Origin: Aquisalimonas lutea
GTDB lineage: Bacteria > Pseudomonadota > Gammaproteobacteria > Nitrococcales > Aquisalimonadaceae
Reading direction: 5' to 3'
DNA: 64,000 nt
Assembly (NCBI RefSeq): GCF_030409225.1
Contig: NZ_JAUFPK010000007.1
Location: 1-64,000 of the forward strand
Shown: positions 42,328-62,413 of the stretch, in pieces
Layout: every line of letters starts with the position of its first letter
How positions within the stretch are numbered: the first letter of the stretch is position 1
The notes under the pieces: model-generated
What the model saw: the letters and a program-made list of their open reading frames with translations, nothing else
Database searches by the model: none
What the model was told of the DNA's origin: nothing
Made by a program: the position numbers and the translations under genes

Positions 42328-42777
42328 TCACGCGTGATCGTCGGCCGCCGCGCGGCTCAGCTCCCGGTAGGCCTCCAGCCGCTGCCGCAGTGCGCCCGTG
42401 AACGGGTACGAGCGATCGGTTGCCAGGTCGGTATTCACCAGCACCGTGTGGCCCTGTACCCGCAGCTCGCCCGAGACGTACCCCGTGAAGGCGAGATGCA
42501 GCGACGACCGGCCCAGGTGGGTGATGCGCACCTCGATCTCCAGCAGCTCCCCCAGGCGCGAGGGATGCAGGAAGCGGCAGTCCGAGGCGACCGCGGGCAG
42601 GCCGTTGCCGCTGCGCAGGATGTGGTCCGCGTAGTCGATCCCGAGCCAGTGGTTGAACCAGTCCTCCACGGCGACCTGGAAGAATTCGAAGTAGCGCGGA
42701 TAGAACACGATCCCCGCCGGGTCCGTGTCGCCGAAGCGGATGCGGATGGGGGAGCGGAACAGCGCCGTCGTTGCCAA
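42328..42777 (-). CDS. Hotdog-fold acyl-CoA thioesterase
   Basis: A 149-residue 4-hydroxybenzoyl-CoA thioesterase-like protein with the family motif RFGDTDPAGIVFYPRYFEFFQVAVEDWF, in which the first Asp after Gly is near the active site. In a 2-aminobenzoyl-CoA cluster it may release CoA from stalled intermediates. A TTG at 42777 with GGAGG eight bases upstream is the favoured start; a GTG at 42795 overlaps the marR stop (GTGA) but has no Shine-Dalgarno. Either way the gene is coupled to marR. Confidence 0.87.
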   Translation of the reverse strand: MATTALFRSPIRIRFGDTDPAGIVFYPRYFEFFQVAVEDWFNHWLGIDYADHILRSGNGLPAVASDCRFLHPSRLGELLEIEVRITHLGRSSLHLAFTGYVSGELRVQGHTVLVNTDLATDRSYPFTGALRQRLEAYRELSRAAADDHA

Positions 42778-42791
42778 GGGGGATTCCTCCG

Positions 42792-43343
42792 TCACTCGGA
42801 CGGCGAGCGGCCCGCACGCCGTTCCACGACCCCCCGCACCGCCGCCTTGGTCCGGGCAAGGAGCTGATTCAGGGTCCGGATCTCCTCCAGGGGCATATCG
42901 GCGAGAAGCTCCTCCAGCCAGGCCTCGTGTCGTTCGGCGACCGTCAGGAACGTGCGCTTGCCCTGCTCCGTCAGGGCGACCAGCTGCACCCGGCGGTCGT
43001 TCTCCAGCGGCTGGCGCGCCACGTGACCGTCCCTCTCCAGGCGGTCCACCACGCCGGTGACATGGCCGCCCGAGACCAGCAGACGGCGCGAGAGCTCCGA
43101 CATGGTCTGCGGCGCCCCCGCGTGCTCGAGCTCCGAGAGGACATCGAACTGTGCCAGGGTGATGTCGAAATGCTCCCGCAGGCGGGTGCGGAGCTGGTTC
43201 TCGATGACCGTGGTTACCGGCAGGAGCCGCAGCCACAGCCGCAGGGATTCCTTGCTCCGTGAGGCCTCGACGGATGCCGTGCCGTCCTCGGCCCGCGCCG
43301 TCGTTCCGCTCTGCGCTGATGTGTCGTCGTGCTGAAGGGTCAT
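42792..43343 (-). CDS. MarR family transcriptional regulator
   Basis: A 183-residue MarR regulator: LREHFDITLAQFDVLSELEHAG, then the winged helix TMSELSRRLLVSGGHVTGVVDRLERDGHVARQPLENDRRVQLVALTEQGKRTF. The N-terminal 35 residues are unconserved. It is divergent from the 2-aminobenzoyl-CoA operon and, by analogy with MarR-type control of aryl-CoA pathways, may respond to the CoA thioester. The ATG at 43343 is chosen; 43394 would add 17 residues. Confidence 0.9.
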   Translation of the reverse strand: MTLQHDDTSAQSGTTARAEDGTASVEASRSKESLRLWLRLLPVTTVIENQLRTRLREHFDITLAQFDVLSELEHAGAPQTMSELSRRLLVSGGHVTGVVDRLERDGHVARQPLENDRRVQLVALTEQGKRTFLTVAERHEAWLEELLADMPLEEIRTLNQLLARTKAAVRGVVERRAGRSPSE

Positions 43344-43439
43344 GACCGTGTCTCGTGCCTGTCCGTCGGGGCAGCGTCCATGGCTGCCGGCCATCGGCGG
43401 GTGGGCCCGCCTGGGCCGGAGTTTACGCAGGGCCGCCGG

Positions 43440-43544: not shown

Positions 43545-44324
43545 ATGACGGCTCGGGCAGCACACGCAATCGTTACCGGAGCGGGGCGCGGTATCGGCGC
43601 CGCCATCGCCGCCCGCCTGGCCGCGGAGGGCTTTGCCGTGCACCTGGCGGGACGCACCGCGGCCGCCCTGGAGGCGCAGGCCGCCGAGCTTCGCGCCGGC
43701 GGGCATGCCGAGGTGCACTGCCACGCCCTGGACGTCACCGATGCCGCGCAGGTCGAGCAGTTGTTCACGCGCCTCGACGCGCTCTGCGCAGCCCCCGCCG
43801 TGGTCGTGAACAACGCCGGCATCTCCGGCAGCGTCCCCTTTCACCGGATGGAGCATGCCCACTGGCAGTCGATGTTCTCGGTCAACGTCGACGGTGTCTT
43901 CCACGTGTGCCGGGCCGCCGTGCCGCGGATGCGCGAGGCCGGGTACGGCCGCATCGTCAACGTCGCCTCCACGGCCGGCCTCAAGGGCTACGCCTACGTG
44001 GCCGCCTATGTCTCGGCCAAGCACGCCGTGATCGGGCTCACCCGCGCCCTGGCGCTCGAGTGCGCCCGCTCCGGCATCACCGTCAACGCCGTGTGCCCCG
44101 GGTTCGCGGACACGGACATGACCGCGGAGACGGTGCGCAACATTGTCGACAAGACCGGGCGCACGGAGTCGGAAGCACTGGCGGAGCTCACCGCCGGCAA
44201 CCCCCAGGGGCGGCTCGTCCAGCCCGGGGAAGTCGCCGATGCCGTGGCCTGGCTGGCCGGCGAGGGGGCGGGCGCCGTCACCGGCCAGTCCATCGCCGTG
44301 GCCGGCGGCGAGGTGACGCCGTGA
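43545..44324 (+). CDS. SDR family dehydrogenase (probable 3-hydroxyacyl-CoA dehydrogenase)
   Basis: A 259-residue short-chain dehydrogenase with the nucleotide motif TGAGRGIG (residues 10-17), NNAG, catalytic Ser in NVASTAGLKGY and Tyr-x3-Lys in YVSAK. It lacks an N-terminal extension. In the island it most likely oxidises the 3-hydroxyacyl-CoA made after hydration of the cyclic enoyl-CoA. The start 43545 has GGAGA eight bases upstream; the longer frame to 43329 covers the promoter and is not coding. Confidence 0.9.
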   Translation: MTARAAHAIVTGAGRGIGAAIAARLAAEGFAVHLAGRTAAALEAQAAELRAGGHAEVHCHALDVTDAAQVEQLFTRLDALCAAPAVVVNNAGISGSVPFHRMEHAHWQSMFSVNVDGVFHVCRAAVPRMREAGYGRIVNVASTAGLKGYAYVAAYVSAKHAVIGLTRALALECARSGITVNAVCPGFADTDMTAETVRNIVDKTGRTESEALAELTAGNPQGRLVQPGEVADAVAWLAGEGAGAVTGQSIAVAGGEVTP

Positions 44325-44372: not shown

Positions 44373-45194
44373 ATGAAGGCAGCCGATTTCCGCCCGGAGC
44401 ACTTCCAGTGGCAGGTCACGGACCGGGTGGCCACCGTGACGCTGAACCGGCCGGAGCGGAAGAACCCGCTGACGCTGGACAGCTACGCCGAGCTGCGGGA
44501 CACGTTCCGCCAGCTGCCGTACTGCGACGACGTCAAGGCGGTGGTCGTCACCGGCGCCGGGGGCAACTTCTGCTCGGGCGGCGACGTCCACGAGATCATC
44601 GGGCCGCTGGTGGAGATGCGTCGCCGGGGCCGCATGGACGACCTGCTGGCGTTCACGCGCATGACCGGCGACCTGGTCAAGGCCATGCGGCACTGCCCGC
44701 AGCCGGTGATCGCCGCCATCGACGGCGTCTGCGCCGGCGCCGGCGCCTGCATCGCCATGGCGTCCGACATCCGCTACGGCACGCCGGAGAGCAAGGTGGC
44801 CTTCCTGTTCAGCCGCGTGGGGCTTGCGGGCTGCGACATGGGCGCCTGCTCCATGCTGCCGCGGATCATCGGCCAGGGGCGCGCGGCGGAAGTGCTCTAC
44901 ACCGGCCGCTCGATCACCGCGGAGGAGGCCGAGCGCTGGGGCCTGTACAACCGCATCGTCGCCGCGGACGACCTGGGGCGGGAGGCAGCGGAGTTCGCCC
45001 GTGGTCTGGCGCACGGGCCCAGCTTCGCCCACGCCATGACCAAGAAGACCCTCCACCAGGAGTGGAGCATGGGCGTGGACGAGGCCATCGAGGCCGAGGC
45101 CCAGGCGCAGGCGATCTGCATGCAGAGCGCGGATTTCGAGCGCGCCTACGAGGCGTTCATCAACAAGCAGCGGCCGGCGTTCGAGGGCAACTGA
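44373..45194 (+). CDS. Enoyl-CoA hydratase/isomerase family protein
   Basis: A 273-residue crotonase-fold protein. Oxyanion-hole segments are [12 protein letters not shown] and [19 protein letters not shown]; the second catalytic region, [22 protein letters not shown], has a Cys-Asp in place of the usual Glu, a known variation in ring-handling members. AGGAGACGAAGG precedes the ATG. It follows SDR by 48 bases and the acyl-CoA dehydrogenase begins one base after its stop, so it is one operon for beta-oxidation-like ring cleavage. Confidence 0.9.
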
Positions 45195-45195
45195 C

Positions 45196-46365
45196 ATGGC
45201 GGACCGCAGCTTCCTGGAATGGCCGTTCTTCGATGACCGCCACCGTGCCCTGGCGGCACGGCTGGAGGCCGTTGCCGACGAGCTGGCGGAGCTGGAGCAC
45301 GACGGCTCGCTGGACATGGACGCGATCTGCCGTGCGGTGGTCGCCCGCCTGGGCGCGGAAGGGCTGCTGGATTACGCCGTCAGCACCGACCCGCAGCGGC
45401 CCCTGGACGTCCGCAGCATCTGCCTGGCCCGGGAGATCCTCGGCTACCGCTTCGGCCTGGCCGATTTCGCCTTCGCCATGCAGGGGCTGGGGTCGGGCCC
45501 CATCGCCATGTTCGGCACCGACGCCCAGCGCGCCCGCTATCTGCCGGGGGTGCAGCGGGGCGAGCGCATCGCCGCCCTGGCCATGTCGGAGCCCGGCGCC
45601 GGCTCCGACTTCGCGGCGCTCACCACCACCGCCAGGCGCGACGGCGACGCCTGGGTGCTCGACGGCACCAAGACGTGGATCTCCAACGCCGGCATCGCCG
45701 ATCAGTACACGGTCTTCGCCAAGACGGATATGGATGCCGGGGCCCGGGGGATCTCGGCGTTCATCGTGGAGGCGGACGACCCCGGCTTCCGGGTGAGCGA
45801 GCGTATCGACGTCATCGCCCCGCACCCGCTGGGAACGCTGGTCCTGGACGAGTGCCGGATCCCCGCCGACCGGATCCTGGGCGCCCCGGGGGACGGCTTC
45901 AAGGCGGCCATGAGCAACCTGGACATCTTTCGCTCGTCGGTGGGGGCGGCGGCCCTGGGGTTCGCCCGGCGGGCGCTGGACGAGGCGCTGGCGCACAGCG
46001 ACGGGCGGGAGCTGTTCGGCGGCCGCCTGTCCGACTTCCAGCTGACCCAGGAGAAGGTGGGCGACATGGCCATGGAGATCGACGCCATGGCCCTGCTCGT
46101 CTACCGCGCCGCGTGGGTCAAGGACGTCCAGCAACGGCGCGTGACCCGCGAGGCATCCATGGCCAAGACCTACGCCACGGAGGCGGCCCAGCAGATCATC
46201 GACCGCGCCGTCCAGCTCCACGGTGCCCTGGGCACCGTCGCCGGCAACAAGGTCGAGGAGCTCTACCGGGAGATCCGTGCCCTGCGGATCTACGAGGGCA
46301 CCACCGAGGTGAACAAGCTGGTTATTGCGGCACAGACATACAAGGCGCACCGCGAAGGCGCCTGA
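45196..46365 (+). CDS. Acyl-CoA dehydrogenase family protein
   Basis: A 389-residue flavoprotein of the acyl-CoA dehydrogenase family: [16 protein letters not shown] and [25 protein letters not shown] bind FAD and substrate, and the C-terminal [14 protein letters not shown] carries the site used by many members for the catalytic Glu. It would introduce a double bond into the reduced ring of the CoA thioester. One base separates it from the hydratase gene. Confidence 0.92.
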
Positions 46366-46406: not shown

Positions 46407-48056
46407 ATGACGGGTTTCAGCGCCCACGTTGACCGGTTTACCGAGACGCATCTGCCGCCGCGGGAGGCGTGGCCCGACATGCGCTACGACACGCTGCCGG
46501 AGCTGCGCGACATCCCCGAGCAGGTGAACTGCGCGGTGCTGCTGGACCGCCAGGCCGAGCAACGTGGCGACCGCCCGGCGCTGCACTACAACGGCACCAC
46601 CTGGAGCTACGCCGAGCTGCGCGAGCAGGCCGACCGCATCGCCCACGTCCTGGTGGACGATCTCGGTGTTCAGCCGGGCAACCGCGTCCTGCTGCGGGCG
46701 CCCAACAACCCCATGATGGTGGCGGCCTGGTTCGCGGTGATGAAGGCCGGCGCCGTGGCGGTGGCGACCATGCCCCTGTTGCGCGCCCGCGAGCTCCAGC
46801 CGGTGTGCGAGCGCGCGCGGATCGAGGTGGCGCTGTGCGACCACCGCCTGCGCGACGACCTGGAGCAGGTCATGGCGACCTCGCCTCTGTCCCGGGCGCT
46901 GTATTTCTACGGCGGCGACGCCGCGGACAGCCTGGAAGCGCGCATTGCGGACAAGCCGGCCCGCTTCGGGACCGTGGCCACCGCCGCCACGGATACCTGC
47001 CTGATCGCCTTCACCTCCGGGACCACCGGCACGCCCAAGGGATGCATGCATTTCCACCGGGACGTCATCGCCATCGCCGAGACGTTCGGGCGCCACGTGC
47101 TGCGGCCGGGCCCGGACGACGTGTTCGCCGGCAGCCCGCCGCTGGCGTTTACCTTCGGTCTCGGGGCCCTGGTGGTGTTTCCCTTCTGGGCCGGCGCGAG
47201 CACGGTGCTGGTGGAGCGCTATACCCCGGAGACGACGCTGGAGACGGTCCAGAAGCACGGGGTGACCACGCTGTTCACGGCGCCGACGGCCTACCGCGGC
47301 ATGGTGGACCGGGTGTCCGACTACGATCTCTCCAGCCTGCACACCTGCGTCTCCGCCGGGGAGACGCTGCCGCGGCCCACCTGGGACGACTGGTACCGGG
47401 CGACGGGCGTGAAGATCATCGACGGCATCGGCTCCACGGAGATGCTGCACATCTTCATCGGCTCGTCCGGCGATGCCATCCGGCCGGGCTCCACCGGGCG
47501 TCCGGTGCCCGGCTACGAGGCCCGGGTGCTGGACAAGCACGGGCGCGAGGTGCCGGCCGGCACCGTGGGCAATCTCGCCGTCCGCGGGCCCACGGGCTGC
47601 CGCTACCTGGACGATCCCGACCGGCAGGCGGGCTACGTGCGCGACGGCTGGAACTGGACCGGGGACGCCTACAGCCGCGACGAGGACGGCTACTTCTGGT
47701 ACGCCTCGCGCACCGACGACCTGATCGTCAGCGGCGGCTACAACATCTCGGGGCCGGAGGTGGAGCGTGCGCTTCTGGAGCATCCCGCCGTGCACGAGTG
47801 TGCCGTGGTCGGGCTTGCCGACCAGGAGCGCGGCCAGCGCGTGACCGCGTTCGTGGTCCTGCGGGACGAGTACGATGCCACGGGCGAGGTGGCGCGCAGC
47901 CTGCAGGAGCACGTCAAGGCATCCCTGGCCCCGTACAAGTATCCGCGCACGGTGGAATTCCTGGATGACCTGCCGCGCACGGCCACCGGCAAGATCCAGC
48001 GCTTCCGGCTGCGCGAGCTCGGGACGGGCGGCGGGCCCGGGGCGATTGCGGACTAA
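46407..48056 (+). CDS. 2-aminobenzoate-CoA ligase (benzoate-CoA ligase family)
   Basis: A 549-residue adenylate-forming ligase of the benzoate-CoA ligase family. P-loop [16 protein letters not shown] (about residue 198), acceptor region [14 protein letters not shown], hinge YWNTGD-like [21 protein letters not shown] and the C-terminal catalytic Lys in TATGKIQRF. Neighbouring 2-aminobenzoyl-CoA monooxygenase indicates anthranilate as substrate; benzoate or salicylate are alternatives. GGGGGAGGAG lies before the ATG at 46407. Confidence 0.88.
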
Positions 48057-48074: not shown

Positions 48075-48485
48075 ATGGTCGAGATTGTGCAGCCCCAGGG
48101 ATGGCCAAGGCCGCGCGGCTACTCCAACGGCACCACGGCGGAAGGGCGGATGGTGTTCGTCGGCGGGCAGGTGGGCTGGACCGAGGAGATGCAGTTCGAG
48201 GCGCGGGATTTCGTCGGCCAGGTCCACCAGGCCCTGCGCAACACCGCCGCGGTGCTGCATGCCGCCGGCGCCCGGCCGGAGCACGTGGTGCGCATGACGT
48301 GGTTCGTCACCGACAAGCGCGAGTACCTGGACAACGCCGCCGCCATGGGGCAGGTCTATCGCGACGTCATGGGCAAGCACTTTCCCGCCATGTCCCTGGT
48401 CCAGGTGGCCGACCTGGTCGAGGACGACGCCAAGGTGGAGATCGAGACCACGGCGGTGGTGCCGCGCGAGGAGACGGGGCCATGA
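48075..48485 (+). CDS. RidA family enamine/imine deaminase
   Basis: A 136-residue RidA/YjgF-family protein: [47 protein letters not shown], and [27 protein letters not shown]. The conserved Arg of the RidA active site would be in the HVVRMTW or adjacent segment. RidA proteins hydrolyse reactive enamines and imines; here the pathway product is itself an enamine, which makes a direct catabolic role attractive. It overlaps the monooxygenase gene by four bases. Confidence 0.9.
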
Positions 48486-50920
48486 GGATCCGCATTGTCG
48501 GCAGCGGGCCGGCGGGCCTGTATTTCGCCATCCTGATGAAGAAGCAGGATCCGGACGCGGACATCCAGGTCTTCGAGCGCAACCGGGCCGACGACACCTT
48601 CGGCTTCGGCGTGGTGTTCTCCGACGAGACCCTGGGCGAGTTCCTCGACTACGACGAGCCCAGCTACCGCGCCATCACCGAGCGCTTCGCCTACTGGGAC
48701 GAGATCGACGTCCACGTCGGCGGCGAGTGCATCCGCTCCGGGGGCCACGGGTTCTGCGGCATCGCCCGCCGGGAGCTGCTCATGGTGCTGCAGCAGCGCG
48801 CCCGCGAGCTCGGCGTGATCATGCACTTCGGCACCGAGGTGGCGAGCCTGGAGACGCTCGCCGACGCCGACGTCATCATCGGCGCCGACGGCATCAACTC
48901 CCTGGTGCGCGAGACCTACCGCGAGCATTTCCGCCCCAGCGTCGACGTGCGCCCGAACAAGTTCGTTTGGCTGGGCACCACCAAGCCGCTGGATACCTTC
49001 ACCTTCATCTTCCGGCAGACGGACTACGGCCTGTTCCAGGTCCACGCCTACCGCTACAACGACGAGCTGACCACCTGGATCGTCGAGACCACCAACGATA
49101 CCTGGCAGCGGGCCGGCCTGGACGATGCCACCGAGGAAGAGACCGTCGCCTTCTGCGAGGAGCTGTTCGCCGACTTCCTGGACGGGCACCCGCTGGTGAC
49201 CAACCGCTCGATCTGGCGCAACTTCCCCACCATCAAGTGCGAGCGCTGGGTCCACGACAACGTCGTGCTCATCGGCGACGCGGTGCACACCGCCCATTTC
49301 TCCATCGGCTCCGGTACCAAGCTCGCCATGGAGGACGCCATCCACCTGCTGGAGGCCTTCCGGGCGTATGCGGACGACCCGCGGGCCGCGCTGCAGGCGT
49401 TCGAGCAGGGGCGCCAGGAGGAGGTCTCCAAGCTGCAGCACGCCGCCCAGGTGAGCCTGGAGTGGTTCGAGCACACGCCGCGCTACCAGCACATGGACCC
49501 GCTGCAGATCGCGTTCAGCCTGCTGTCGCGTTCCAAGCGCATCACCTACGACAACCTGCGCCTGCGCGACAACGCCTTCGTCGACCGGGTGGACCGCTGG
49601 TTCGCCGACCGCGTCCGGCGCGATCTCGGCTTCGCGGTGGCGACCGAGGACCCGGTGCCGCCGATGTTCCAGCCGTTCCGGCTGCGCGACATGGAGCTGG
49701 CCAACCGCGTCGTGGTCTCGCCCATGTGCCAGTACTCCGCCAGTGACGGCTACCCCAACGACTGGACGTTCCAGCATCTCACCAGCCGCGCCATCGGCGG
49801 CGCCGGCCTGGTGTTCACGGAGATGACGGACATCTCCGAGGAGGGGCGCATCACGCCGGCGTGCACGGGCATTTACTGCGACGGGCACGTGGCCGCCTGG
49901 CGCCGGATCACCGATTTCGTCCACCGGCACACGCGGGCGAAGATCTGCCTGCAGATCGCCCACGCCGGCCCCAAGGCGTCCACCTGCCTGCCGTGGCAGG
50001 GCAAGGGCATGGACTACCCGCTGCCCGAGGGCAACTGGCCGATCATGGCCGCCTCCGCCGTGCCGTACCGGGAGGAAAGCCAGGTGCCGCGGGCCATGGA
50101 CCGGGACGACATGGACAAGGTCGTGGCCGACTTCGTCGCCGCGGCCCGGCGCGCCGAGCAGGCCGGCTTCGACATGATCGAGATCCACATGGCCCACGGC
50201 TACCTGCTGTCGAGCTTCATCACGCCGCTGATGAACCGCCGCGACGACGAATACGGCGGCGGCATCGACAATCGCATGCGCTTCCCGCTGGAGGTGTTCG
50301 CTGCCGTGCGGGCGGTGTGGCCGCAGCACAAGCCCATCTCCGTGCGCATCTCGGCGACGGACTGGATGGAGGATATCGGCGTCACCGGCGATGACGCGGT
50401 GCGCATGGCGCAGATGCTCCGGGAGCACGGCGTCGACATCGTCGATGTCTCCGCCGGGCAGACCTCCACCGAGGCGCGGCCGGTGTACGGACGCATGTTC
50501 CAGACGCCGTTCGCCGACCAGGTGCGCCAGGAGGCCGGCACCGCTACCATCGCCGTGGGCAACATCACCACCGCCGATCAGGTGAACACCATCCTGGCGG
50601 CCGGGCGTGCGGATCTGGTGGCGCTGGCCCGCCCGCACCTGGCGGATCCGTACTTTACCCTGCATGCTGCCGCGGAGTACGGGGTCAGCGGGCAGTACTG
50701 GCCGCCCCAGTACGAGGCCGGCAAGTTCCAGGCGGAGGTGCTGGCCCGGCGCAACAACGAGGAGATGGCCGAGCTGCGCGCCGCGGCGCGGCCGGAGAAG
50801 CCGCACGAGGCGCTGGCCCGGCTGGATGCGCGGGCGGCAGGCGAAGACAATGCCTCGTTGCAGTACAGTGATTCGTCCGGCCATCGTCGGACGGTGTCCG
50901 TCACCGGCGATGGTGCATAA
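48482..50920 (+). CDS. 2-aminobenzoyl-CoA monooxygenase/reductase (fused flavoprotein)
   Basis: An 812-residue two-domain flavoenzyme. Residues 1-385 form an aromatic hydroxylase domain with [16 protein letters not shown] (FAD), [12 protein letters not shown] and [26 protein letters not shown]. From about residue 393 an Old Yellow Enzyme domain follows ([59 protein letters not shown]). This fusion is the mark of the Azoarcus enzyme that hydroxylates 2-aminobenzoyl-CoA at C5 and then reduces the ring; annotation pipelines also call it salicylyl-CoA 5-hydroxylase. The frame is open upstream to 48101, but the ATG at 48482, overlapping ridA, is the natural start. Confidence 0.92.
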
Positions 50921-50952: not shown

Positions 50953-52131
50953 ATGAATCGTCTTACAAGAAGTCTCGGCACGATGGCCGTCACGCTCGGG
51001 CTCGGTGTCGCCACGGCGACTGCGGCGGAGCCCGTGAAGATCGGCATGGTTACCACGCTGTCCACCGGGGGCGGGTATCTGGGCGAGGAAGTGCGCGACG
51101 GCTTCCGGCTCGCCATGCAGCAGGAAGGCGGCGATACCCTGGGCGGCGTCCCGGTGGAGCTGATCGTCGAGGATGACGGCCGCAATCCCGGGCAGGGCCG
51201 CCAGATCGCCCAGCGCATGATGCAGAGCGAGGGCGTGCAGATCATGACCGGCAGCATCTTCTCCAACGTGGCCATGGCGGTGATCCCGCAGGTGGTCCGG
51301 GAGGGGGTGGTGTTCATCAGCCCCAATGCCGGCCCGAGCCAGCTGGCCGGGGCCCAGTGCCACGAGAACTATTTCAACGCGGCCTGGCAGAACAACGACC
51401 TGCACTCGGCCATGGGCAAGTACCTGGAGGATGAGGGCTACGACAACGTCTATCTCCTGGCGCCCAACTACCCGGCGGGCCGCGACGCCTTGACCGGGTT
51501 CAAGCGCTACTACGAGGGCAATATCGTCGGCGAGACCTACACGCAGCTGGGGCAGTCGGACTTCGCCGCCGAGATCTCGTCGGTGCGCGAGGCCGACCCG
51601 GACGCCGTGTTCTTCTTCCTGCCCGGCGGCGACGGCGTGAACTTCGTGCGGCAGTTCGACGACGCCGAGCTCACCGACCGCTTCCCGCTGTTCGGCGCGG
51701 CGTTCTCGTTCGACAACACGCTGGTCCAGGCCGTGGGCGATGCGGCAAGGGGCGCGTTCAACACCTCGCAGTGGAGCGCCGACCTGGACAACGAGGCGAA
51801 CCGGCAGTTCGTCGCCGCCTACGAGGAGGAGTACGGCAGCAAGCCCACGCTCTACGCCCACCAGGGCTACGATACGGCCCGGCTGATCGGCAGCGCGCTG
51901 CGGGCGGTGGACGGCGATCTCAGCGACATGGAGGCGTTCCGCGAGGCCCTGCGCGCCGCGGATTTCGACTCCACCCGGGGGGATTTCCGCTTCAATACCA
52001 ACCAGCACCCCATCCAGGACATCTACGTCCGCGAGGTGGTCGAGGGTGACGATGGCAAGCTGACCAACCGCCTGGTCGCCAAGGTCATCGAGGATCACGA
52101 GGACGCATTCGTGGGCGAGTGCCACCTCTGA
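50953..52131 (+). CDS. Branched-chain-type ABC substrate-binding protein, probably aromatic acid
   Basis: A 392-residue periplasmic binding protein of the LivJ type with a signal peptide ending TATAAE. VKIGMVTTLSTGGGYLGEEVRDGFRLAMQQEGG and YDNVYLLAPNYPAGRDALTGFKRYY are typical. Members in aryl-CoA clusters bind benzoate, 4-hydroxybenzoate or 2-aminobenzoate, so this probably captures anthranilate. GGAGAAGGAGA precedes the ATG. Two Cys (in QCHENYF and GECHL) could form a disulfide. Confidence 0.88.
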   Translation: MNRLTRSLGTMAVTLGLGVATATAAEPVKIGMVTTLSTGGGYLGEEVRDGFRLAMQQEGGDTLGGVPVELIVEDDGRNPGQGRQIAQRMMQSEGVQIMTGSIFSNVAMAVIPQVVREGVVFISPNAGPSQLAGAQCHENYFNAAWQNNDLHSAMGKYLEDEGYDNVYLLAPNYPAGRDALTGFKRYYEGNIVGETYTQLGQSDFAAEISSVREADPDAVFFFLPGGDGVNFVRQFDDAELTDRFPLFGAAFSFDNTLVQAVGDAARGAFNTSQWSADLDNEANRQFVAAYEEEYGSKPTLYAHQGYDTARLIGSALRAVDGDLSDMEAFREALRAADFDSTRGDFRFNTNQHPIQDIYVREVVEGDDGKLTNRLVAKVIEDHEDAFVGECHL

Positions 52132-52202: not shown

Positions 52203-53117
52203 ATGCTGTTCTTCATCGAGCAGTTGCTGAACGGCTTTCAGCTCGGGGTCACGCTGTTGCTCATGGCCTCGGGCCTGACGCTGATCTTCGGCATCATGCA
52301 CCTGATCAACCTGGCCCACGGGTCGTTGTTCATGATCGGCGCCTTCGTGGGCGCCACGGTCATGGCCTACACCGGCAGCTTCCTGCTGGCGCTCGCGGGG
52401 GGCGTGGCGGCGTCCGGGCTGGTGGGCATGGCGCTGGAGTACACCGTCCTGCGGCGGCTCTACTACCGCGAGCACCTGGACCAGGTGCTGGCGACCTTCG
52501 GCATGATCCTGTTCTTCAACGAGCTGGTGCAGATCGTCTGGGGGCGGCGGCCCCTGGGCGTGGATACGCCGTCGTGGCTTTCCTTCACCGTGGAGATCCT
52601 GCCCGGGGTGGCGTACCCGGCGCACCGGCTGGCCGTGATCGCCGTCGGCCTGCTGGTGATCGTGGGCCTGTTCTTCCTGATCATGCGGACCCGGGTGGGC
52701 ATGTGGATCCGCGCCGGCGCCTCCATCCGCGAGATGATCGGCGCGCTGGGCGTGAACATCAATCTGCTCTACACCCTGGTGTTCGGCCTGGGGGCCTGCC
52801 TGGCCGGCCTGGCGGGGGTGATGGCCTCGCCGTTGATGTCCGTGCAGGCGGGCATGGGGGAGAACATCCTCATCCTGACCTTCGTGGTCATCGTCATCGG
52901 CGGCATCGGCTCACTGCGGGGGGCGGTGGTCGGAGCCGTCCTGGTGGGGGTGGCGGATACCCTGGGCCGGGTCTACTTCCCCGCGCTGTTCCGGCTGTGG
53001 GCCGATCCGGCGACGGCGGACGCCGCCGGGGCATCGCTGGCATCGATGACCATCTATCTCGTCATGGCCGTCGTCCTCGCGGTCCGGCCTCAAGGACTGT
53101 TCCGTGCCCATGCCTGA
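52203..53117 (+). CDS. Branched-chain-type ABC permease (LivH)
   Basis: A 304-residue membrane protein of the LivH family, about eight helices, with LIFGIMHLINLAHGSLFMIGAF near the start and FVVIVIGGIGSLRGAVVGAVLVGVADTLGRVYFP near the end. It follows the binding protein by 71 bases and overlaps livM by eight bases. Confidence 0.93.
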   Translation: MLFFIEQLLNGFQLGVTLLLMASGLTLIFGIMHLINLAHGSLFMIGAFVGATVMAYTGSFLLALAGGVAASGLVGMALEYTVLRRLYYREHLDQVLATFGMILFFNELVQIVWGRRPLGVDTPSWLSFTVEILPGVAYPAHRLAVIAVGLLVIVGLFFLIMRTRVGMWIRAGASIREMIGALGVNINLLYTLVFGLGACLAGLAGVMASPLMSVQAGMGENILILTFVVIVIGGIGSLRGAVVGAVLVGVADTLGRVYFPALFRLWADPATADAAGASLASMTIYLVMAVVLAVRPQGLFRAHA

Positions 53118-54093
53118 GACCAACAAGCGCGCGACGTTTCTCACCCTGGGGGTTCTGGCGTTTCTCGCGATTCTGCCCCCCGTGGCCCTGGCCCTCGACC
53201 GGCCCTACATGGTGACGCTGGCGAACCGCATGCTGGTCTACGCCCTGGCCGCGGTGGCCCTGGATCTCGTCATGGGCTACGGACGCATGGTGAGCTTCGG
53301 CCACGCGGCCTTCCTCGGCCTCGGCGCCTACACCGTGGGTATCCTGCATCACCACGACGTCATGATGACCCCGTTCCTGTTCGGCTGGGCGGGGAGCAAC
53401 GAGGCCCTGCTGGCGTGGCCGCTGGCCATGCTGGTGGCCGCCGGCTACGCCCTGCTGGTGGGTGCCATCTCGCTGCGCACCGGCGGCGTGTACTTCATCA
53501 TGATCACGCTGGCGTTCGCCCAGATGGTGTTCTTCTTCTTCGTCTCGCTGATCGCCTACGGCGGGCGGGACGGCCTGGTGATGTTCTCGCGCAACAGCGT
53601 CGCCGGCACCGACATCCTCGGCAGCCGGGTCGTGCTGTACTACGTCTGCCTGGGCTGTCTCGTGGCGGTGCTGGCCTTCCTGGTCATGGTGGTGCGCTCG
53701 CGCTTCGGGCGCATCATCGAGGGGTGCCGCCAGAACGAGCAGCGCATGCGGGCGCTGGGATACAAGCCCTTTGTCTACAAGCTCACGGCGTTCGTCCTCT
53801 CCGGCGCGCTGGCCGGGCTGGCCGGGGCGCTGCTGGCGAACCACAGCGAGTTCGTCAGCCCGGACTTCCTCAGCTGGGAGAGTTCCGGGCTGCTCATGGT
53901 CATGGTGCTCCTGGGCGGCCTGAGCACCCTGGTGGGGCCGATCTACGGGGCGCTGACCCTGTTCGCCCTGGAAGAGGTCCTGGTGGCCTATACGCCGCAC
54001 TGGCAGCTCGTGCTGGGGCCGGTGCTGATCCTGGCCGTGCTGTTCTTCAAGGGTGGCCTGTACGGCTGGATGACGGGCAAGCGAACGGGGTAG
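53110..54093 (+). CDS. Branched-chain-type ABC permease (LivM)
   Basis: A 327-residue LivM-type permease, about nine helices: ALDLVMGYGRMVSFGHAAFLGLGAYTVGI, ISLRTGGVYFIMITLAFAQMVFFFF, and KLTAFVLSGALAGLAGALLANHSEFVSPDFLSW. The ATG at 53110 is chosen; a GTG at 53104 gives two more residues. Six bases separate it from the livG-type ATPase. Confidence 0.93.
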   Translation: MPETNKRATFLTLGVLAFLAILPPVALALDRPYMVTLANRMLVYALAAVALDLVMGYGRMVSFGHAAFLGLGAYTVGILHHHDVMMTPFLFGWAGSNEALLAWPLAMLVAAGYALLVGAISLRTGGVYFIMITLAFAQMVFFFFVSLIAYGGRDGLVMFSRNSVAGTDILGSRVVLYYVCLGCLVAVLAFLVMVVRSRFGRIIEGCRQNEQRMRALGYKPFVYKLTAFVLSGALAGLAGALLANHSEFVSPDFLSWESSGLLMVMVLLGGLSTLVGPIYGALTLFALEEVLVAYTPHWQLVLGPVLILAVLFFKGGLYGWMTGKRTG

Positions 54094-54099
54094 CAACGC

Positions 54100-54849
54100 A
54101 TGACGCAAGCACTTCTTCGTGCCGAGGGGTTGCACAAGAGCTACGGCGGGCTGGTGGCCACGCGCCACCTGGATCTCGACCTGCATGCCGGCGAGATCCA
54201 CGCCATGATCGGCCCCAACGGTGCCGGCAAGACCACCGCCATGGGGCAGTTGTCCGGGGAGCTGGCCCCCGATGCCGGGCGCATCGTGCTCGACGGCGAG
54301 GACGTCACCCGGCTGTCCATGCCCGCCCGGGCGCGGCGCGGCATCGCGCGCTCCTACCAGATCACCGCCGTGTTCGAGGAATTCACCGTCCGCCAGAACG
54401 TTGCCGTCGCCGTGCAGGCCATGGCGCGCCATCATTTCCGGATGGTCCGCCCGGCGCGGCGGGATCCGGAGCTCAACGCCGGGGCCGAGGAGGCCCTGGG
54501 GCGCGTCGGGCTGCTGCACCTGGCCGACGAGGTCGCCGCGGATCTCGCCCACGGCCAGAAGCGCCAGCTGGAGCTGGCCATGGTGCTCGCCACGCGCCCG
54601 CGGGTGCTGCTGCTCGACGAGCCCATGGCGGGCATGGGCAACGCCGAGGTGGATGCCATGACCCGGCTGCTCGAGGAGCTGCGCAGTCACTACGCCATCC
54701 TGCTGGTGGAGCACGACATGGACGTGGTCTTCCGCGTGGCGGATCGCACCACGGTGCTGGTGGACGGCGCCGTACTGGCATCGGGGGCGCCGGAGGCGAT
54801 CCGCAGCGATGCCCGGGTGCAGGCAGCCTATCTCGAGGAGTCCGCCTGA
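54100..54849 (+). CDS. Branched-chain-type ABC ATPase (LivG)
   Basis: A 249-residue ATPase with Walker A GPNGAGKTT, signature LAHGQKRQLELAMVLA in the LivG form, Walker B VLLLDEPMAGM and LLVEHDMDVVF. It overlaps the next gene as TGATG. Confidence 0.94.
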   Translation: MTQALLRAEGLHKSYGGLVATRHLDLDLHAGEIHAMIGPNGAGKTTAMGQLSGELAPDAGRIVLDGEDVTRLSMPARARRGIARSYQITAVFEEFTVRQNVAVAVQAMARHHFRMVRPARRDPELNAGAEEALGRVGLLHLADEVAADLAHGQKRQLELAMVLATRPRVLLLDEPMAGMGNAEVDAMTRLLEELRSHYAILLVEHDMDVVFRVADRTTVLVDGAVLASGAPEAIRSDARVQAAYLEESA

Positions 54850-55538
54850 TGATGCTGCAGTTGCAGGGGGTGGAGACCGCCTACGGGAGCTCCCAGGTGC
54901 TGTTCGGCGTCGACCTGGAGGTGGGCGAGGGCGAGGCCGTGGCGCTGCTGGGCCGCAACGGCATGGGCAAGACCACCACCATCCGCTCGCTCATGGGCCT
55001 CACGCCGCCCCGTCGCGGCAGCGTGCGGTTCGACGGCAGGGAGGTCACCGGCGAGCCCGCCTTCCGCATGGCGCGGCGGGGCATCGGCCTGGTTCCGGAG
55101 GGCCGGCTGATCTTTCCCAACCTGGATGTCCGCGAGAACCTGGTCGCCGCCGCGCGGGGCGAGGGCTGGACCCTGGAGAAGGTCTACGAGTTCTTTCCCC
55201 GCCTGTACGAGCGCCAGCATCATGGCGGCAACGCCCTGTCCGGCGGCGAGCAGCAGATGCTCGCCATCGGCCGCGCGCTGATGACCAATCCGCGGCTGCT
55301 GGTGCTCGACGAGGCGACGGAAGGCCTGGCGCCCTCGCTGCGGGGCGAGATCTGGCGGCGCCTGGAAGAGCTGCGCAGCCAGGGACAGTCGCTGCTGATC
55401 ATCGACCGCAACATCGACGCGCTGCTGCGCTTCTGCGACCGCTTCTACCTGATCGACAAGGGGCGTATCGGCTGGACCGGGGATGCCGCCGCCATGGCCG
55501 CGGATCCGACGCTGCGCCAGCGCTATCTCGGCGTCTGA
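54849..55538 (+). CDS. Branched-chain-type ABC ATPase (LivF)
   Basis: A 229-residue ATPase with Walker A GRNGMGKTT, LVPEGRLIFPNLDVRENL, signature LSGGEQQMLAIGRAL and Walker B LLVLDEATEGLAPSL. The usual switch His segment VEQN/VEHD is read here as IDRNID, with Arg-Asn in place of the common Gln-Asn or His-Asp. It starts at the TGATG junction with livG and closes the transport operon. Confidence 0.93.
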   Translation: MMLQLQGVETAYGSSQVLFGVDLEVGEGEAVALLGRNGMGKTTTIRSLMGLTPPRRGSVRFDGREVTGEPAFRMARRGIGLVPEGRLIFPNLDVRENLVAAARGEGWTLEKVYEFFPRLYERQHHGGNALSGGEQQMLAIGRALMTNPRLLVLDEATEGLAPSLRGEIWRRLEELRSQGQSLLIIDRNIDALLRFCDRFYLIDKGRIGWTGDAAAMAADPTLRQRYLGV

Positions 55539-55565: not shown

Positions 55566-55841
55566 CTACATGCCGATGGAGAACATGTGCTCCAGGTCGT
55601 GGCGCGAGTGCGTCTTGAACGCCACCAGGGTCTCGGTCTTCTGGATGCCTTCCAGCGGGGCGATGTGCTCGGTCACCAGGGCCGCGAGCTCCTCGTTGGT
55701 GGGCACGCGGATCAGGGTCACCAGGTCGTAGGTGCCGCCGACGGAGTAGCACTCGGAAATGCCGTCGATGGTGGGAAGGTACTCGGCGATCTCGTTGACC
55801 CGCTTCCCCTCCACGTGCATGAGGACGATTGCCGTGACCAT
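55566..55841 (-). CDS. Lrp/AsnC ligand-binding domain protein
   Basis: A 91-residue protein that is only the RAM/AsnC ligand-binding domain (VTAIVLMHVEGKRVNEIAEYLPTIDGISECYSVGGTYDLVTLIRVPTNEELAALV). The DNA-binding helix-turn-helix is absent, so it may bind amino or aromatic acids and act as a sensor, or form mixed oligomers with a full-length Lrp. It is convergent with livF, 27 bases away. Confidence 0.9.
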   Translation of the reverse strand: MVTAIVLMHVEGKRVNEIAEYLPTIDGISECYSVGGTYDLVTLIRVPTNEELAALVTEHIAPLEGIQKTETLVAFKTHSRHDLEHMFSIGM

Positions 55842-58316: not shown

Positions 58317-59561
58317 ATGAAACGACGCGACTTGTTGAAAGGCATGGCCATTGGTGGGGTGGCCGGGGCGTCCGGTCTGGGCGGATTCCCCGGGATCTGG
58401 GTGAAGGGCGGGACGGCGCTGGCGGCATCGGGGGATATCCCGGTGGGCGTGCTGTTCTCGCAGACAGGGGCCGTGGCCGTTGTCGAGAGCACCCTCCACG
58501 ACGCCTGCATGATGGCCATCGAGGAGATCAACGACAGCGGCGGCATCCAGGGCCGCATGCTCAATCCCTACGTCGAGGATCCGGCCTCCGACCCGGCCAC
58601 GTTCTCGGACCGGGCCAACCGGCTGGTGCGCCGCGACCGCGTGGTGTCCATCTTCGGCTCGTACACCTCGGCGAGCCGCCAGGCGGTGCTGCCGGTGGTG
58701 GAGGGGCAGAACAACCTCTACTGGTATCCCACCCTCTACGAGGGGCGCGAGTGCTCGCGCAACGTCATGTACGGCGGGGCGGTGCCGAATCAGCAGCAGC
58801 AGGAGTTCGTGCCCTGGCTCAAGGAGAACTTCGGCGGGCGCTTCTACCTGCTCGGCAACGACTACGTTTACCCGCGGGAGGAGAACAACGTCTGCCGCAA
58901 GATCCTCGGTGACATCGGCGGCGAGGTCGTCAACGAGGAGTACGTGCCCATGGGGCACGACAGCTTCAGCTCCGTCATCAGCCGCATCCGCCGGGAGGAG
59001 CCGGACGTCATCTTCTGCACGCTGGTGGGCGACTCGGACGTGGCGTTCCAGCGCGAGTACCGCAGCGCCGGGCTGGACCCGGAGCGCATGCCCGTAGCGA
59101 GCCTGACGCGCTCGGAGGTCGAGGTCAGCGCCATCGGCGGTGACGCGGCGGCCGGGCACTTCTCGTCGGCCCCGTACTTCATGGGGCACGACTCGCCGGA
59201 GAACGAGCGCTTCGTCGAGGCCTACCTGCGCAGGTACGGCAGCGACAAGGTCACCCACTTCGTCAATGAGGCCGCCTATTTCCAGGTCTACCAGTTCAAG
59301 GCCGCGCTCGAGGCGCTCGGCGACGCCGAGGTGACGCCGGCCGCCATCCGGGACGCGGCCGTGGGCCTGCGCTTCCAGGCGCCGCAGGGGCAGGTCGAGA
59401 TCGACGGCAACCTCCACACCCACCTCTGGCCCAAGATCGGGCAGTGGCAGTCGGACGGCCAGGCGAAGGTGCTGGTGGAGTCGTCCGAGCGCGTCGCCCC
59501 GGAGCCGTACTGGGCCTACGAGGGCCAGATCTGCACCGCGGAGGGACTCCAGCAGGCCTGA
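58317..59561 (+). CDS. Amide/urea-type ABC substrate-binding protein (AmiC/FmdD/UrtA-like)
   Basis: A 414-residue type I binding protein. MKRRDLLKGMAIGG carries a twin-arginine signal. LFSQTGAVAVVESTLHDACMMAIEEINDSGGI, YWYPTLYEGRECSRNVMYGGAVPNQQ, LLGNDYVYPREENN and ASLTRSEVEV align with Pseudomonas AmiC and with urea/short-amide binders UrtA and FmdD. With amidase behind it, acetamide, formamide or urea are likely ligands. First gene of the operon, 60 bases after a leader terminator. GGAGGGG precedes the ATG. Confidence 0.9.
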   Translation: MKRRDLLKGMAIGGVAGASGLGGFPGIWVKGGTALAASGDIPVGVLFSQTGAVAVVESTLHDACMMAIEEINDSGGIQGRMLNPYVEDPASDPATFSDRANRLVRRDRVVSIFGSYTSASRQAVLPVVEGQNNLYWYPTLYEGRECSRNVMYGGAVPNQQQQEFVPWLKENFGGRFYLLGNDYVYPREENNVCRKILGDIGGEVVNEEYVPMGHDSFSSVISRIRREEPDVIFCTLVGDSDVAFQREYRSAGLDPERMPVASLTRSEVEVSAIGGDAAAGHFSSAPYFMGHDSPENERFVEAYLRRYGSDKVTHFVNEAAYFQVYQFKAALEALGDAEVTPAAIRDAAVGLRFQAPQGQVEIDGNLHTHLWPKIGQWQSDGQAKVLVESSERVAPEPYWAYEGQICTAEGLQQA

Positions 59562-59653
59562 GCCCGCTGGCTGCTACTGACGAGCGGCGCCGGCGCCGGC
59601 AGGGATGCGGTGCCGGCAGCCGCCACCAAGGGTACGGTACCGGGGAGTAGGTC

Positions 59654-60523
59654 ATGGAGAGCTTGTTCAACGAGGCGTTCATCGGTCTCAGCCTCGCCTC
59701 GATTCTCCTGATGGTCGCGCTCGGGCTGGCGATCATCTACGGAACCATGGGCGTGATCAACCTGGCGCACGGGCAGTTCGTCATGCTCGGCGCCTACGGC
59801 GCCTGGCTGCTGCAGACCACCTTCGGCCTGAGCCTGCTGGTCGCCATTCCGGTGGTGTTCGTGGTCGTCGCGCTCATCGGGCTCGGCATCGAGCGCACCA
59901 TCGTGCACCGGCTCTACCGCCGGCCGCTGGACACCATTCTCGCCACCTGGGGCATCGGCATCGTCATCGAGCAGCTGGTGCGTGCCGGGTTCGGCTCGGA
60001 CTCGCGCTACGTCGCCCGGCCGGCGTTCCTGGAGGACGGCTTCCTGTTTCTCGGCGCCTACGTCTCGTCGTACCGGCTGTTCATCATCCTGTTCTCGCTG
60101 GCGATGCTCGCAGCGACCTGGTACCTGCTGTTCCGTACCGAGTTCGGCACGAAGCTCCGCGCCGTCATCCAGAACACCGAGATCTCGCGGTGCTACGGCA
60201 TCAGCGCCAAGCGGGTGTACGCGTTGACGTTCGCCTACGGTGCCGGCCTGGCGGCCGTCGCCGGCGCCCTGGTGACACCGCTGGTGAGCGTCACGCCGAC
60301 CATGGGCACCAGCTTCGTGGTCGATGCCTTCCTGGTGGTGATCGTCGGCGGCGTGGGCAGCGTGCTCGGCTCCGCGGCCTCGGCGCTCATGATCGGTGAG
60401 GCCTCCGCGTGGCTGTCGTTTCTGTCGTCGGAGACCACCGGCCGGATTCTCATTCTTCTCGGCGTGATCGTGCTGATCCGGTTCCGGCCCCAGGGCCTGT
60501 TCCCGGACACGGTTCGGCGCTAG
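59654..60523 (+). CDS. Amide/urea-type ABC permease (UrtB-like)
   Basis: A 289-residue LivH/UrtB-type permease, about eight helices: LGLAIIYGTMGVINLAHGQFVMLGAYGAW and VDAFLVVIVGGVGSVLGSAASALMIGEASAWLSF. The length is that of a permease alone, without the N-terminal periplasmic part seen in some UrtB proteins. GGGGAGTAGGTC precedes the ATG. Ten bases to the next gene. Confidence 0.92.
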   Translation: MESLFNEAFIGLSLASILLMVALGLAIIYGTMGVINLAHGQFVMLGAYGAWLLQTTFGLSLLVAIPVVFVVVALIGLGIERTIVHRLYRRPLDTILATWGIGIVIEQLVRAGFGSDSRYVARPAFLEDGFLFLGAYVSSYRLFIILFSLAMLAATWYLLFRTEFGTKLRAVIQNTEISRCYGISAKRVYALTFAYGAGLAAVAGALVTPLVSVTPTMGTSFVVDAFLVVIVGGVGSVLGSAASALMIGEASAWLSFLSSETTGRILILLGVIVLIRFRPQGLFPDTVRR

Positions 60524-60533
60524 GGGGTAAGGC

Positions 60534-61664
60534 ATGAACAAGGGTTTTACCGTCGACTGTATCGGCTACGCGCTGTTCGCCGCCTTCGTCCTGCTGCTGA
60601 TGCCGTGGATGGTCGATTTCAGCGGCTACGAGCTCAACAGCTATGCGCGCTACCTCGCCCTGGGCGTTGTGGCGGCGGCCGTCGCCCTGTCGTGGGGGAC
60701 GGCCGGGATCCTCAACCTCGGCCAGGCGCTCACGTTCGGCATCGGCTCCTACGTCATGGCCATGCATCTCAAGCTCAAGGCGAGCGCGTCCCAGCCGGGC
60801 GGCATGCCGGACTTCATGGTATGGACCAACGTCGAGAGCCTGCCGTGGTTCTGGGAGCCCTTCCGCTCGCTGCCCCTGACCCTCGCCGCCGGGGTCCTGG
60901 TGCCGGTGATCGTCGCCGGGCTGCTCGGCATGTTCATGTTCCGCGGCCGCATCACCGGCGTGTTCGTGGCCATCATCACGCTGTCGCTGATGCTCGCCGT
61001 GCAGCTGTGGATCATCAACGAGCAGGGCTGGACCGGCGGCGAGAACGGCATCACCAGCCTGGCGCCGCTGGAGCTGTTCGGCTGGAGCGTGGATACCTAC
61101 TCGCTGCCGTTCTATTACCTGGCGGCCGGCTGCCTGCTCGCGGTCCTGGCCCTGGGGCTGGTGCTGATCCGCAGCAAGGCCGGGCTGGTGCTGCGCGCCA
61201 TCAAGGACGACGCCGCCCGCGTGCGCTTCTTCGGCTACGACGTCGCCCGCTACGAGACCATCGTCTTCTCCGCCTCCGCAGCCATGGCGGGGGTCGCGGG
61301 CATGCTGTACTGCCTGGTGCTGGAGTTCGCCTCGCCCACGTACATGGGCCTGTCGCTCAGCCTCGCCATGGTGATCTGGGCCGCCGTGGGCGGCCGGGAG
61401 TCCATCGTGGCGGCGGCTCTGGGCGGCATCGGCGTCAACATGGCGGAGGGGCGGCTGTCGGATCTCTTTTTCGACCAGTGGACGCTGATGCTCGGCGTGA
61501 TCTTCATCGCCGTGGTCCTGTTCCTGCCCCGGGGGTTGTACGGGCTGCTCGACGGCGCCCGGGAAATGCTCAGCGCACGCACGGGCGCGGTCCGCGAGAA
61601 CGCGGCCGGGGCGGGCAAGGTCGTGCCGCCCACCGGCGTCGCCAGCGAGGGGAAGACAGACTGA
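60534..61664 (+). CDS. Amide/urea-type ABC permease (UrtC-like)
   Basis: A 376-residue LivM/UrtC-type permease with about ten helices: LSWGTAGILNLGQALTFGIGSYVMAMHLKLK (UrtC-type signature), FRGRITGVFVAIITLSLMLAVQLWIINEQGWTGGENGITSL. It ends in a polar tail of about 40 residues and overlaps the next gene as TGATG. Confidence 0.93.
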   Translation: MNKGFTVDCIGYALFAAFVLLLMPWMVDFSGYELNSYARYLALGVVAAAVALSWGTAGILNLGQALTFGIGSYVMAMHLKLKASASQPGGMPDFMVWTNVESLPWFWEPFRSLPLTLAAGVLVPVIVAGLLGMFMFRGRITGVFVAIITLSLMLAVQLWIINEQGWTGGENGITSLAPLELFGWSVDTYSLPFYYLAAGCLLAVLALGLVLIRSKAGLVLRAIKDDAARVRFFGYDVARYETIVFSASAAMAGVAGMLYCLVLEFASPTYMGLSLSLAMVIWAAVGGRESIVAAALGGIGVNMAEGRLSDLFFDQWTLMLGVIFIAVVLFLPRGLYGLLDGAREMLSARTGAVRENAAGAGKVVPPTGVASEGKTD

Positions 61665-62413
61665 TGGCTGCATTGATCCTGGAAGGCTTGACCGTGCGCT
61701 TCGGCGGCCTCGTGGCCGTCGACGGCCTGGACCTGCACGTGCGCGACGGGGAGCTGCGCTGCCTGCTGGGGCCGAACGGCGCCGGCAAGTCCACCACACT
61801 GGACCTGATCTGCGGCAAGACGCAGCCGACGTCCGGGCGCGTGCTCCTCGGCGATCGCGACATCACCGGCCTGCCGGAGTACCAGCGCGCCCGCGCCGGC
61901 GTCGGGCGCAAGTTCCAGACGCCGACGGTATTCCGGAGCCTGACCGTTCTCGAGAACCTGGAGATCGGGCGCTCGGCCCGGCCCGGCGTGCTCGACACGC
62001 TGCGGGTGTTCCGCACCCCCGTGCGCGGGCGCGTCCAGGACGTCCTGGAAATGGTCGGCCTGGCGGACGCAATCCATACCCGGGCCGACAACCTCTCCCA
62101 CGGCCAGACCCAGTGGCTGGAGATCGCCATGCTCCTGATGCAGGACTGCAAGGTCATTCTCATGGACGAGCCCACGGCGGGCATGACCGTCCAGGAGACT
62201 GCGCAGACCGCGGCGCTTTTCCGCCAGCTGCGCGGCGATCACACCATGATCGTGGTCGAGCACGACATGACCTTTGTCCGCGACATCGCCGAGACCGTCA
62301 CTGTGATGGACATGGGCAGCCTGCTGGCGGAGGGAAGCATCCGGGAGATCGAGTCCGATCCCGCCGTGCGCGAAGCCTACCTGGCCGATACGGGAGACGA
62401 AGCCCATGCTTGA
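61664..62413 (+). CDS. Amide/urea-type ABC ATPase (UrtD-like)
   Basis: A 249-residue ATPase: Walker A GPNGAGKST, the UrtD-type GVGRKFQTPTVFRSLTVLENLEI, signature LSHGQTQWLEIAMLL (the UrtD form), Walker B VILMDEPTAGM and VVEHDMTFV. The ATG at 61664 overlaps the urtC-like stop, and the gene overlaps the next by eight bases. The frame open upstream to 60605 is antisense-like noise. Confidence 0.93.
   Translation: MAALILEGLTVRFGGLVAVDGLDLHVRDGELRCLLGPNGAGKSTTLDLICGKTQPTSGRVLLGDRDITGLPEYQRARAGVGRKFQTPTVFRSLTVLENLEIGRSARPGVLDTLRVFRTPVRGRVQDVLEMVGLADAIHTRADNLSHGQTQWLEIAMLLMQDCKVILMDEPTAGMTVQETAQTAALFRQLRGDHTMIVVEHDMTFVRDIAETVTVMDMGSLLAEGSIREIESDPAVREAYLADTGDEAHA

Follow-up and report, generated by a model that had tools for sequence, protein, structure and literature searches.

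A methionine-type Rid protein found with 2-aminobenzoyl-CoA monooxygenase/reductase, a candidate for the ammonia-release step of aerobic anthranilate breakdown

In Aquisalimonas lutea a gene for a protein of the Rid family overlaps the gene for a flavoenzyme of the 2-aminobenzoyl-CoA monooxygenase/reductase type, here called ABM. This raises the question what a Rid protein does in the breakdown of 2-aminobenzoate (anthranilate), and whether it could release the amino group as ammonia. The earlier note on this DNA had proposed such a step for RidA and had drawn on the overlap of the two genes. We address the question with the window, a stretch of 64,000 nucleotides of contig NZ_JAUFPK010000007.1, and with related loci and genomes.

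The gene cluster and its overlapping genes

The rid gene (48075..48485, + strand) encodes 136 residues and ends with the TGA at 48483-48485. According to the ORFs of the window, the ABM gene (48482..50920, +) starts with the ATG at 48482-48484, ends at 50920 and encodes 812 residues. A longer ORF of 939 residues from 48101 was rejected as the gene start, as it is the ABM frame running upstream through rid. The enzyme 2-aminobenzoyl-CoA monooxygenase/reductase is a fusion of a salicylate-monooxygenase-like and an old-yellow-enzyme-like flavoprotein, and its gene typically has those of a benzoate-type CoA ligase and of beta-oxidation close by. Both Pfam domains of such a fusion, FAD_binding_3 and Oxidored_FMN, lie within the 812 residues, and genes of both kinds adjoin the ABM gene. 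In a profile search the protein scores 1169 bits against NF006101 (cut-off 1078). NCBI names this family 'bifunctional salicylyl-CoA 5-hydroxylase/oxidoreductase', and the substrate can therefore not be read from the family name.

Upstream on the minus strand are a hotdog thioesterase (42331..42771, start not settled; Pfam 4HBT_2/4HBT over cut-off) and a MarR-family regulator (42792..43394; MarR/MarR_2 over cut-off). In many related loci a similar thioesterase is found near Rid, and similar MarR genes are present in many as well. The plus strand then carries a short-chain dehydrogenase (SDR; 43563..44324, start not settled; adh_short), a protein of the crotonase/enoyl-CoA hydratase family (44373..45194; NF006107, 478.5 bits, cut-off 330), which is a candidate for a ring-opening or hydration step, and an acyl-CoA dehydrogenase with Pfam Acyl-CoA_dh domains (45196..46365). 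A protein of the benzoate-CoA ligase family (46407..48056, +; TIGR02262, 389.9 bits, cut-off 375.25) is presumed from this score and its position to be the 2-aminobenzoate-CoA ligase. Downstream of ABM, a substrate-binding protein (50953..52131, +; Peripla_BP_6) is followed by branched-chain-type ABC transporter genes (52203..55538, +), namely permeases at 52203-53117 and 53104-54093 and ATPases at 54100-54849 and in the following ORF. These were named from their ORFs and presumably import an aromatic acid; homologues of the permeases and the first ATPase occur in related ABM loci. Just past them, on the minus strand (55566-55841), a 91-residue ORF matches a lone Lrp/AsnC ligand-binding domain, its DNA-binding part being unmatched, and a further set of ABC transporter genes, of branched-chain/urea type and also named from ORFs, lies nearby at 58317-63101. 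At E <= 1e-150 ABM is missing from four congeneric and nine other same-family genomes, and therefore the rid/ABM cluster was probably acquired.

The overlap itself is real: the four bases ATGA at 48482..48485 (+) place the rid stop within the ABM start. As evidence of function it is weak when taken alone, since five other gene pairs among a selection of 24 window genes overlap by four bases likewise, making six with rid/ABM. We fetched 154 other ABM loci, of which 100 (50/74 and 50/80) have a Rid within 8-10 kb, and used aligned ABM starts in all 154 for the count. In these 100 loci rid is found downstream of ABM in 65, on the opposite strand in 25 and, in the remaining 10, ahead of ABM on its own strand. 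The four-base overlap recurs in only two, L131 (ATGA) and L132 (GTGA), and in L099 a gap of 24 bases separates the genes. The overlap is thus a rare local arrangement rather than a conserved sign of function, and being common in the window and rare among rid/ABM loci it was dropped as the main evidence for a role of Rid.

A Rid clade with methionine in place of arginine

The window protein belongs to the Rid (YjgF/YER057c/UK114) superfamily, with 86.9 bits against PF01042 (cut-off 27.3). Members of this superfamily are homotrimers with active sites between subunits. The scores for the two named enzymes stay below their cut-offs, with 68.3 against 106.25 for archetypal RidA (TIGR00004) and 32.2 against 169.1 for RutC (TIGR03610). 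In a gap-free alignment Met106 occupies the position of the catalytic Arg105 of RidA (PAR becoming PAM) and of Arg104 of RutC, while Tyr16 and Glu122 are kept; we call the protein Met-Rid. In RidA, Arg105 holds the carboxylate of the substrate, and its change to Ala is described as nearly abolishing activity (PMC4433059). Changing this arginine is reported to leave RidA nearly inactive and RutC inactive, and the Arg-less Rid proteins tested in the cited work had no deaminase activity (PMC4433059, PMC8113886, PMC5619798, PMC7221256). For this reason the rule that RidA hydrolyses enamines is not simply transferable to the window protein, and biochemically the label 'RidA' of the earlier note does not hold. 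Having Met and Glu, the protein falls under the Rid5/Rid6 rule as given in PMC4433059 (Arg absent, Glu kept).

The predicted monomer (pLDDT 95.8) has the Rid fold. Like archetypal RidA (E. coli RidA and TdcF, Z 13.3 and 13.5), it has this fold and the Tyr17 and Glu120 positions; unlike it, it has Met for Arg105 and about four extra residues near positions 83-90 of the window protein in five pairwise alignments. The top structural match and nearest solved structure is 5V4F, Y. pestis YyfB (Z 19.0 over 127 residues), which likewise has no Arg. It differs in having Asn at the place of the Met and shows no ABM link here; judging by its residues, 5V4F may be of the Rid5/6 type. Against Rid structures the rmsd of the model was 1.7-3.2 Å by VIA-align and near 11 Å by Foldseek.

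The methionine is characteristic of the Rid proteins near ABM. The window and the 154 loci together contain 104 Rid ORFs, of which 101 carry it (100 distinct sequences). The other three, a second Rid in L063 with Asn and those of L139 (Arg) and L124 (Ile), all score below 65 bits against the clade profile; they were counted among the 104 and left out of the clade. Among the 101, the Tyr17 position is occupied by Tyr (92), Trp (7) or Phe (2). For comparison we read 26 paralogous Rids, 24 from nine genomes and two from the window's genome, and none has Met at this position (Arg 19, Ser 2, Trp 2, Asn 1, Asp 1, Cys 1). The sample from the nine genomes consisted of 30 sequences fetched out of 60 Rid matches, that is three Met-Rids, the 24 read and three outside the profile (L215, L216, L221). 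A tree built from the alignment without the Met column unites the Met-Rids with four second-tier relatives in one clade (support 100/96). These four were fetched out of ten second-tier matches of 116-138 bits and lie outside ABM clusters, with Ser in L222, L228 and L238 and Met in L223. One further sequence, L262, is interrupted by an internal stop and was left unread at this position, and L110 and L129 stem from the same genome. At the level of sequence, Met-Rid is thereby shown to be a distinct Rid clade in which Arg105 is replaced by Met, Glu120 is kept and the protein is found with ABM and, as a rule, with a CoA ligase.

The loss of an arginine held to be required, together with the inactivity of the Arg-less Rids tested, would also fit a Met-Rid that is not a deaminase at all. 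Instead of catalysing a reaction, it could serve ABM or a CoA intermediate as a subunit, chaperone or sensor, the amino group leaving spontaneously or through another enzyme such as the crotonase. We consider this unlikely, as Glu120 is kept in all 101 clade members counted, and the loci described below bear on it as well.

Occurrence of Met-Rid with and without ABM

ABM was found in 71 of 398 Pseudomonadota genomes (E <= 1e-150) and Met-Rid in 69 (E <= 1e-20), all of them among the 71. In this screen the best ten or fewer first-look candidates of each genome were scored, and on this basis none of the 327 genomes without ABM has a Met-Rid. The hypergeometric probability of this pairing is 9e-76, uncorrected for relatedness; by genus, the counts are 46 of 213 for ABM and 44 of 213 for Met-Rid. 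Two genomes with ABM (G296 and G349) gave no clade member among the same candidates; in G349 the ABM gene is some 14 kb away from a Rid of the Asn type.

Distance and orientation are less constant. Without the window's own, the 398 genomes hold 72 ABM genes, and 61 of them have a Rid within 20 kb, which lies downstream on the same strand in 51 cases, divergently in nine and directly upstream, as in the window, in one. Of the other 11, five have their Rid on another contig, three are separated from it by 38 kb or more, and three are of the gentisate type. On plasmid NC_008688 of Paracoccus denitrificans PD1222, ABM occupies 599659-601935 and Rid 605476-605856. We also searched 16 whole genomes, 14 of which had been picked for having no Rid near ABM. 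A clade-profile match of at least 125 bits was found in 15, among them Planctomycetota, Myxococcota and an Acidobacteriota bin, and in 14 of these the top match carries Met, while in the remaining genome the second match does. Only L127, a MAG, gave no match of that class. Since the position and distance of Rid vary and most of the genomes searched for want of a nearby Rid still hold one, the association is one of genome and pathway and not of one fixed neighbour. The varied place of rid in the clusters, which provides no fixed partner gene, can also be counted in favour of the non-catalytic explanation.

To cover further phyla, 11 plasmid loci were added. Nine of them encode a Met-Rid (six from Actinomycetota, one from Deinococcus and two from haloarchaea), while none was found at the haloarchaeal loci L247 and L244 (within 9 kb in L244). 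The planctomycete locus L139 has, at 4250-4750 and directly downstream of ABM, a RidA of the Arg type whose N-terminus resembles that of a lipoprotein. The idea that Planctomycetota use such a RidA instead was dropped, because a protein of the Met-Rid class is encoded elsewhere in the same genome. Met-Rid can also be found without a neighbouring ABM. In L225 and L226 (genomes G217 and G200) its neighbours are an acyl-CoA dehydrogenase and a gentisate-dioxygenase-like gene, and no ABM was found in the surrounding 6 kb or so; in L224 and L229 it lies away from such clusters. L225 and L226 additionally hold an FAH (fumarylacetoacetate-hydrolase-type) gene and an indolepyruvate-oxidoreductase-like pair.

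The ABM loci that lack Rid are informative with regard to the substrate. A gentisate-1,2-dioxygenase query matches in three of the 154 loci (L090, L106 and L101). With 306 and 322 bits, the L090 and L106 genes fall short of the TIGR02272 cut-off of 442.1, and 'gentisate-dioxygenase-like' is therefore the safe name; the L101 gene is 72.5% identical to that of L106. The same query matches in the archaeal L247, which has cupin and FAH genes. None of these four gentisate-type ABM genes has a Rid within 8-9 kb (8 kb for the three bacterial ones). In a quickly built tree of ABM they are spread over three branches, and the branch of the archaeal gene is long. Whereas G296 and G349 gave no clade member, the genome of L101 does have a clade Rid, beside its other ABM. 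Counterparts of the window's crotonase, acyl-CoA dehydrogenase and ligase are likewise missing from the three bacterial loci within 8 kb. The absence of Rid would fit salicylyl-CoA as the substrate, which has no amino group to remove. It also argues against the non-catalytic explanation, as a partner of ABM should still be needed there. That a gentisate dioxygenase always excludes Met-Rid is not fully true, since L225 and L226 have both; in these the acyl-CoA dehydrogenase might re-aromatise a deaminated diketone to gentisyl-CoA.

Among the 154 ABM loci, 33 carry tryptophan dioxygenase and 22 carry kynureninase, which produces anthranilate, and their recurrence points to anthranilate; kynureninase is found in none of the three bacterial gentisate-type loci. 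Neither enzyme was found in the window's own genome, so the organism may take anthranilate up. This lack of a match and the NCBIfam name of NF006101 would both suit a window ABM that is a true salicylyl-CoA 5-hydroxylase with an incidental Rid. We regard that as very improbable, because the gentisate-dioxygenase query has no match in the window and its gene set is that of the tryptophan/kynurenine-type loci, with the crotonase, acyl-CoA dehydrogenase and ligase whose like the three bacterial gentisate-type loci lack. NF006101 gives the whole family the name salicylyl-CoA 5-hydroxylase, though many members sit in clusters linked to tryptophan and kynurenine, and the name is probably over-broad.

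A proposed role in ammonia release

The part of the earlier note that stands is the placing of a Rid protein in the aminobenzoyl-CoA pathway, with loss of ammonia from an enamine, to which the genome profile, the clusters and the Rid-less gentisate-type ABMs now point; its identity as RidA and the overlap as the basis do not stand. We propose, with a probability of roughly two in three, that Met-Rid is a dedicated enzyme of this pathway which hydrolyses the beta-enamino CoA thioester made by ABM and releases ammonia. The CoA ligase would make 2-aminobenzoyl-CoA, ABM would dearomatise it to the enamine 2-amino-5-oxocyclohex-1-ene-1-carbonyl-CoA, and Met-Rid would convert this to 2,5-dioxocyclohexane-1-carbonyl-CoA and ammonia. 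As the carboxyl group of this substrate is masked as a thioester, an arginine that binds a carboxylate would be of no use; the methionine may line the pocket in its place, with Glu120 still positioning the water.

The product would be a 1,3-dicarbonyl, the form needed by the hydrolytic enzymes expected to open the ring, crotonase-type in Proteobacteria and FAH-type in Actinomycetota. Thioesters of 1,3-dicarbonyls are cleaved by FAH-type and ring-opening crotonase-type hydrolases. In three actinobacterial clusters the neighbours of Rid are a cupin, a thioesterase and a hydrolase of the FAH type, with ligase and ABM present. Around ABM on plasmid pAL1, one of the three, no crotonase, acyl-CoA dehydrogenase or SDR is named among 33 features of an incomplete gene table; the other two, whose gene tables are also incomplete, have an SDR or acyl-CoA dehydrogenase farther off. 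The proteobacterial clusters have crotonase, acyl-CoA dehydrogenase and SDR. Because ligase, ABM and Met-Rid recur while the other neighbours of Rid differ between the two phyla, we place Rid at the product of ABM.

Arthrobacter Rue61a, whose plasmid pAL1 carries Met-Rid by ABM, offers some chemical evidence. A CoA ester of C7H8O4 was reported only in anthranilate-grown cells, and its authors suggested that it might be cyclohexanedione-carboxyl-CoA (PMC3534580). Formic acid had been used to quench the cells, the samples were taken up at pH 3.5, and the enamine ester is described as unstable below pH 5 (PMC3534580), so this compound may have formed in the sample. A mutant without the plasmid still grew on anthranilate (PMC3534580), presumably from chromosomal copies, and spontaneous hydrolysis of the enamine could suffice. 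The same study bears on a protective role, in which Met-Rid would hydrolyse a quinone-imine arising from oxidised 5-hydroxyanthraniloyl-CoA that ABM releases under NADH limitation, outside the main flux. The study cites the release of 5-hydroxyanthraniloyl-CoA at limiting NADH and detected a C7H7NO3 ester of CoA in cells (PMC3534580), and prevention of damage is described as the classic role of RidA. We find such a repair role less probable still than a non-catalytic one: the near-perfect pairing with ABM suggests a needed step, and the C7H8O4 ester, if not an acid artefact, fits deamination on the main path, though both would still leave room for a repair role.

The proposed role of Met-Rid has parallels in two catabolic Rid enzymes. 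RutC, the 3-aminoacrylate deaminase, is also a Rid of a catabolic operon that acts on a beta-enamino acid, and it speeds a step once presumed spontaneous; unlike Met-Rid, with its Met, it depends on Arg104 and acts on a substrate whose carboxylate is free (PMC8113886). The 2-aminomuconate deaminase AmnE (PDB 6IZH, Z 13.1) shares the Rid fold and a place in aromatic amine breakdown, but has a conserved Arg117 in its cleft (PMC6742747). More generally, the substrate of Met-Rid would be a masked acid, whereas that of AmnE is a free dicarboxylate.

A Rid homologue in an anthranilate cluster has probably been on record since 2001. In that year Schuehle et al. reportedly described aerobic 2-aminobenzoate clusters of Azoarcus (Aromatoleum) evansii with ligase, ABM, beta-oxidation genes, a MarR-like regulator and a transporter binding protein. 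A 'putative translation inhibitor', the old name for Rid, is said to be among the genes, and it is not known to have been given a deaminase role. A review assigns no deaminase to the ammonia-release step (PMC4539516). Enamine deaminases of COG251 have been proposed in benzoate regulons, aminobenzoyl-CoA not being named there (PMC6449761). Among the papers listed in a literature search that left most subscription journals outside, none links a Rid protein to ABM or salicylyl-CoA 5-hydroxylase, and none describes the Met clade, its pairing with ABM across genomes or its absence near gentisate-type ABMs. The switch to Met and the pairing therefore appear to be new.

Taken more broadly, we lean somewhat towards the view that Met-Rid is a separate subfamily common to bacteria and haloarchaea, a beta-enamino CoA thioester deaminase and as such the first active Arg-less Rid, in which Arg gave way to Met as CoA masks the carboxylate, and which fills the ammonia-release step of aerobic anthranilate breakdown. 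In the cited papers Arg105 serves as a predictor of deaminase function, and the Arg-less Rid subfamilies described there are without an assigned activity. With the Met clade tied to one oxygenase that makes an enamine thioester, one Arg-less group would gain a concrete substrate and the arginine rule would become directly testable. The presence of a Met-Rid could also help annotation to separate anthranilate from salicylate clusters, which now stand under one enzyme name. For the pathway that degrades anthranilate from tryptophan and quinaldine-type compounds, Met-Rid would provide the missing ammonia-release step.
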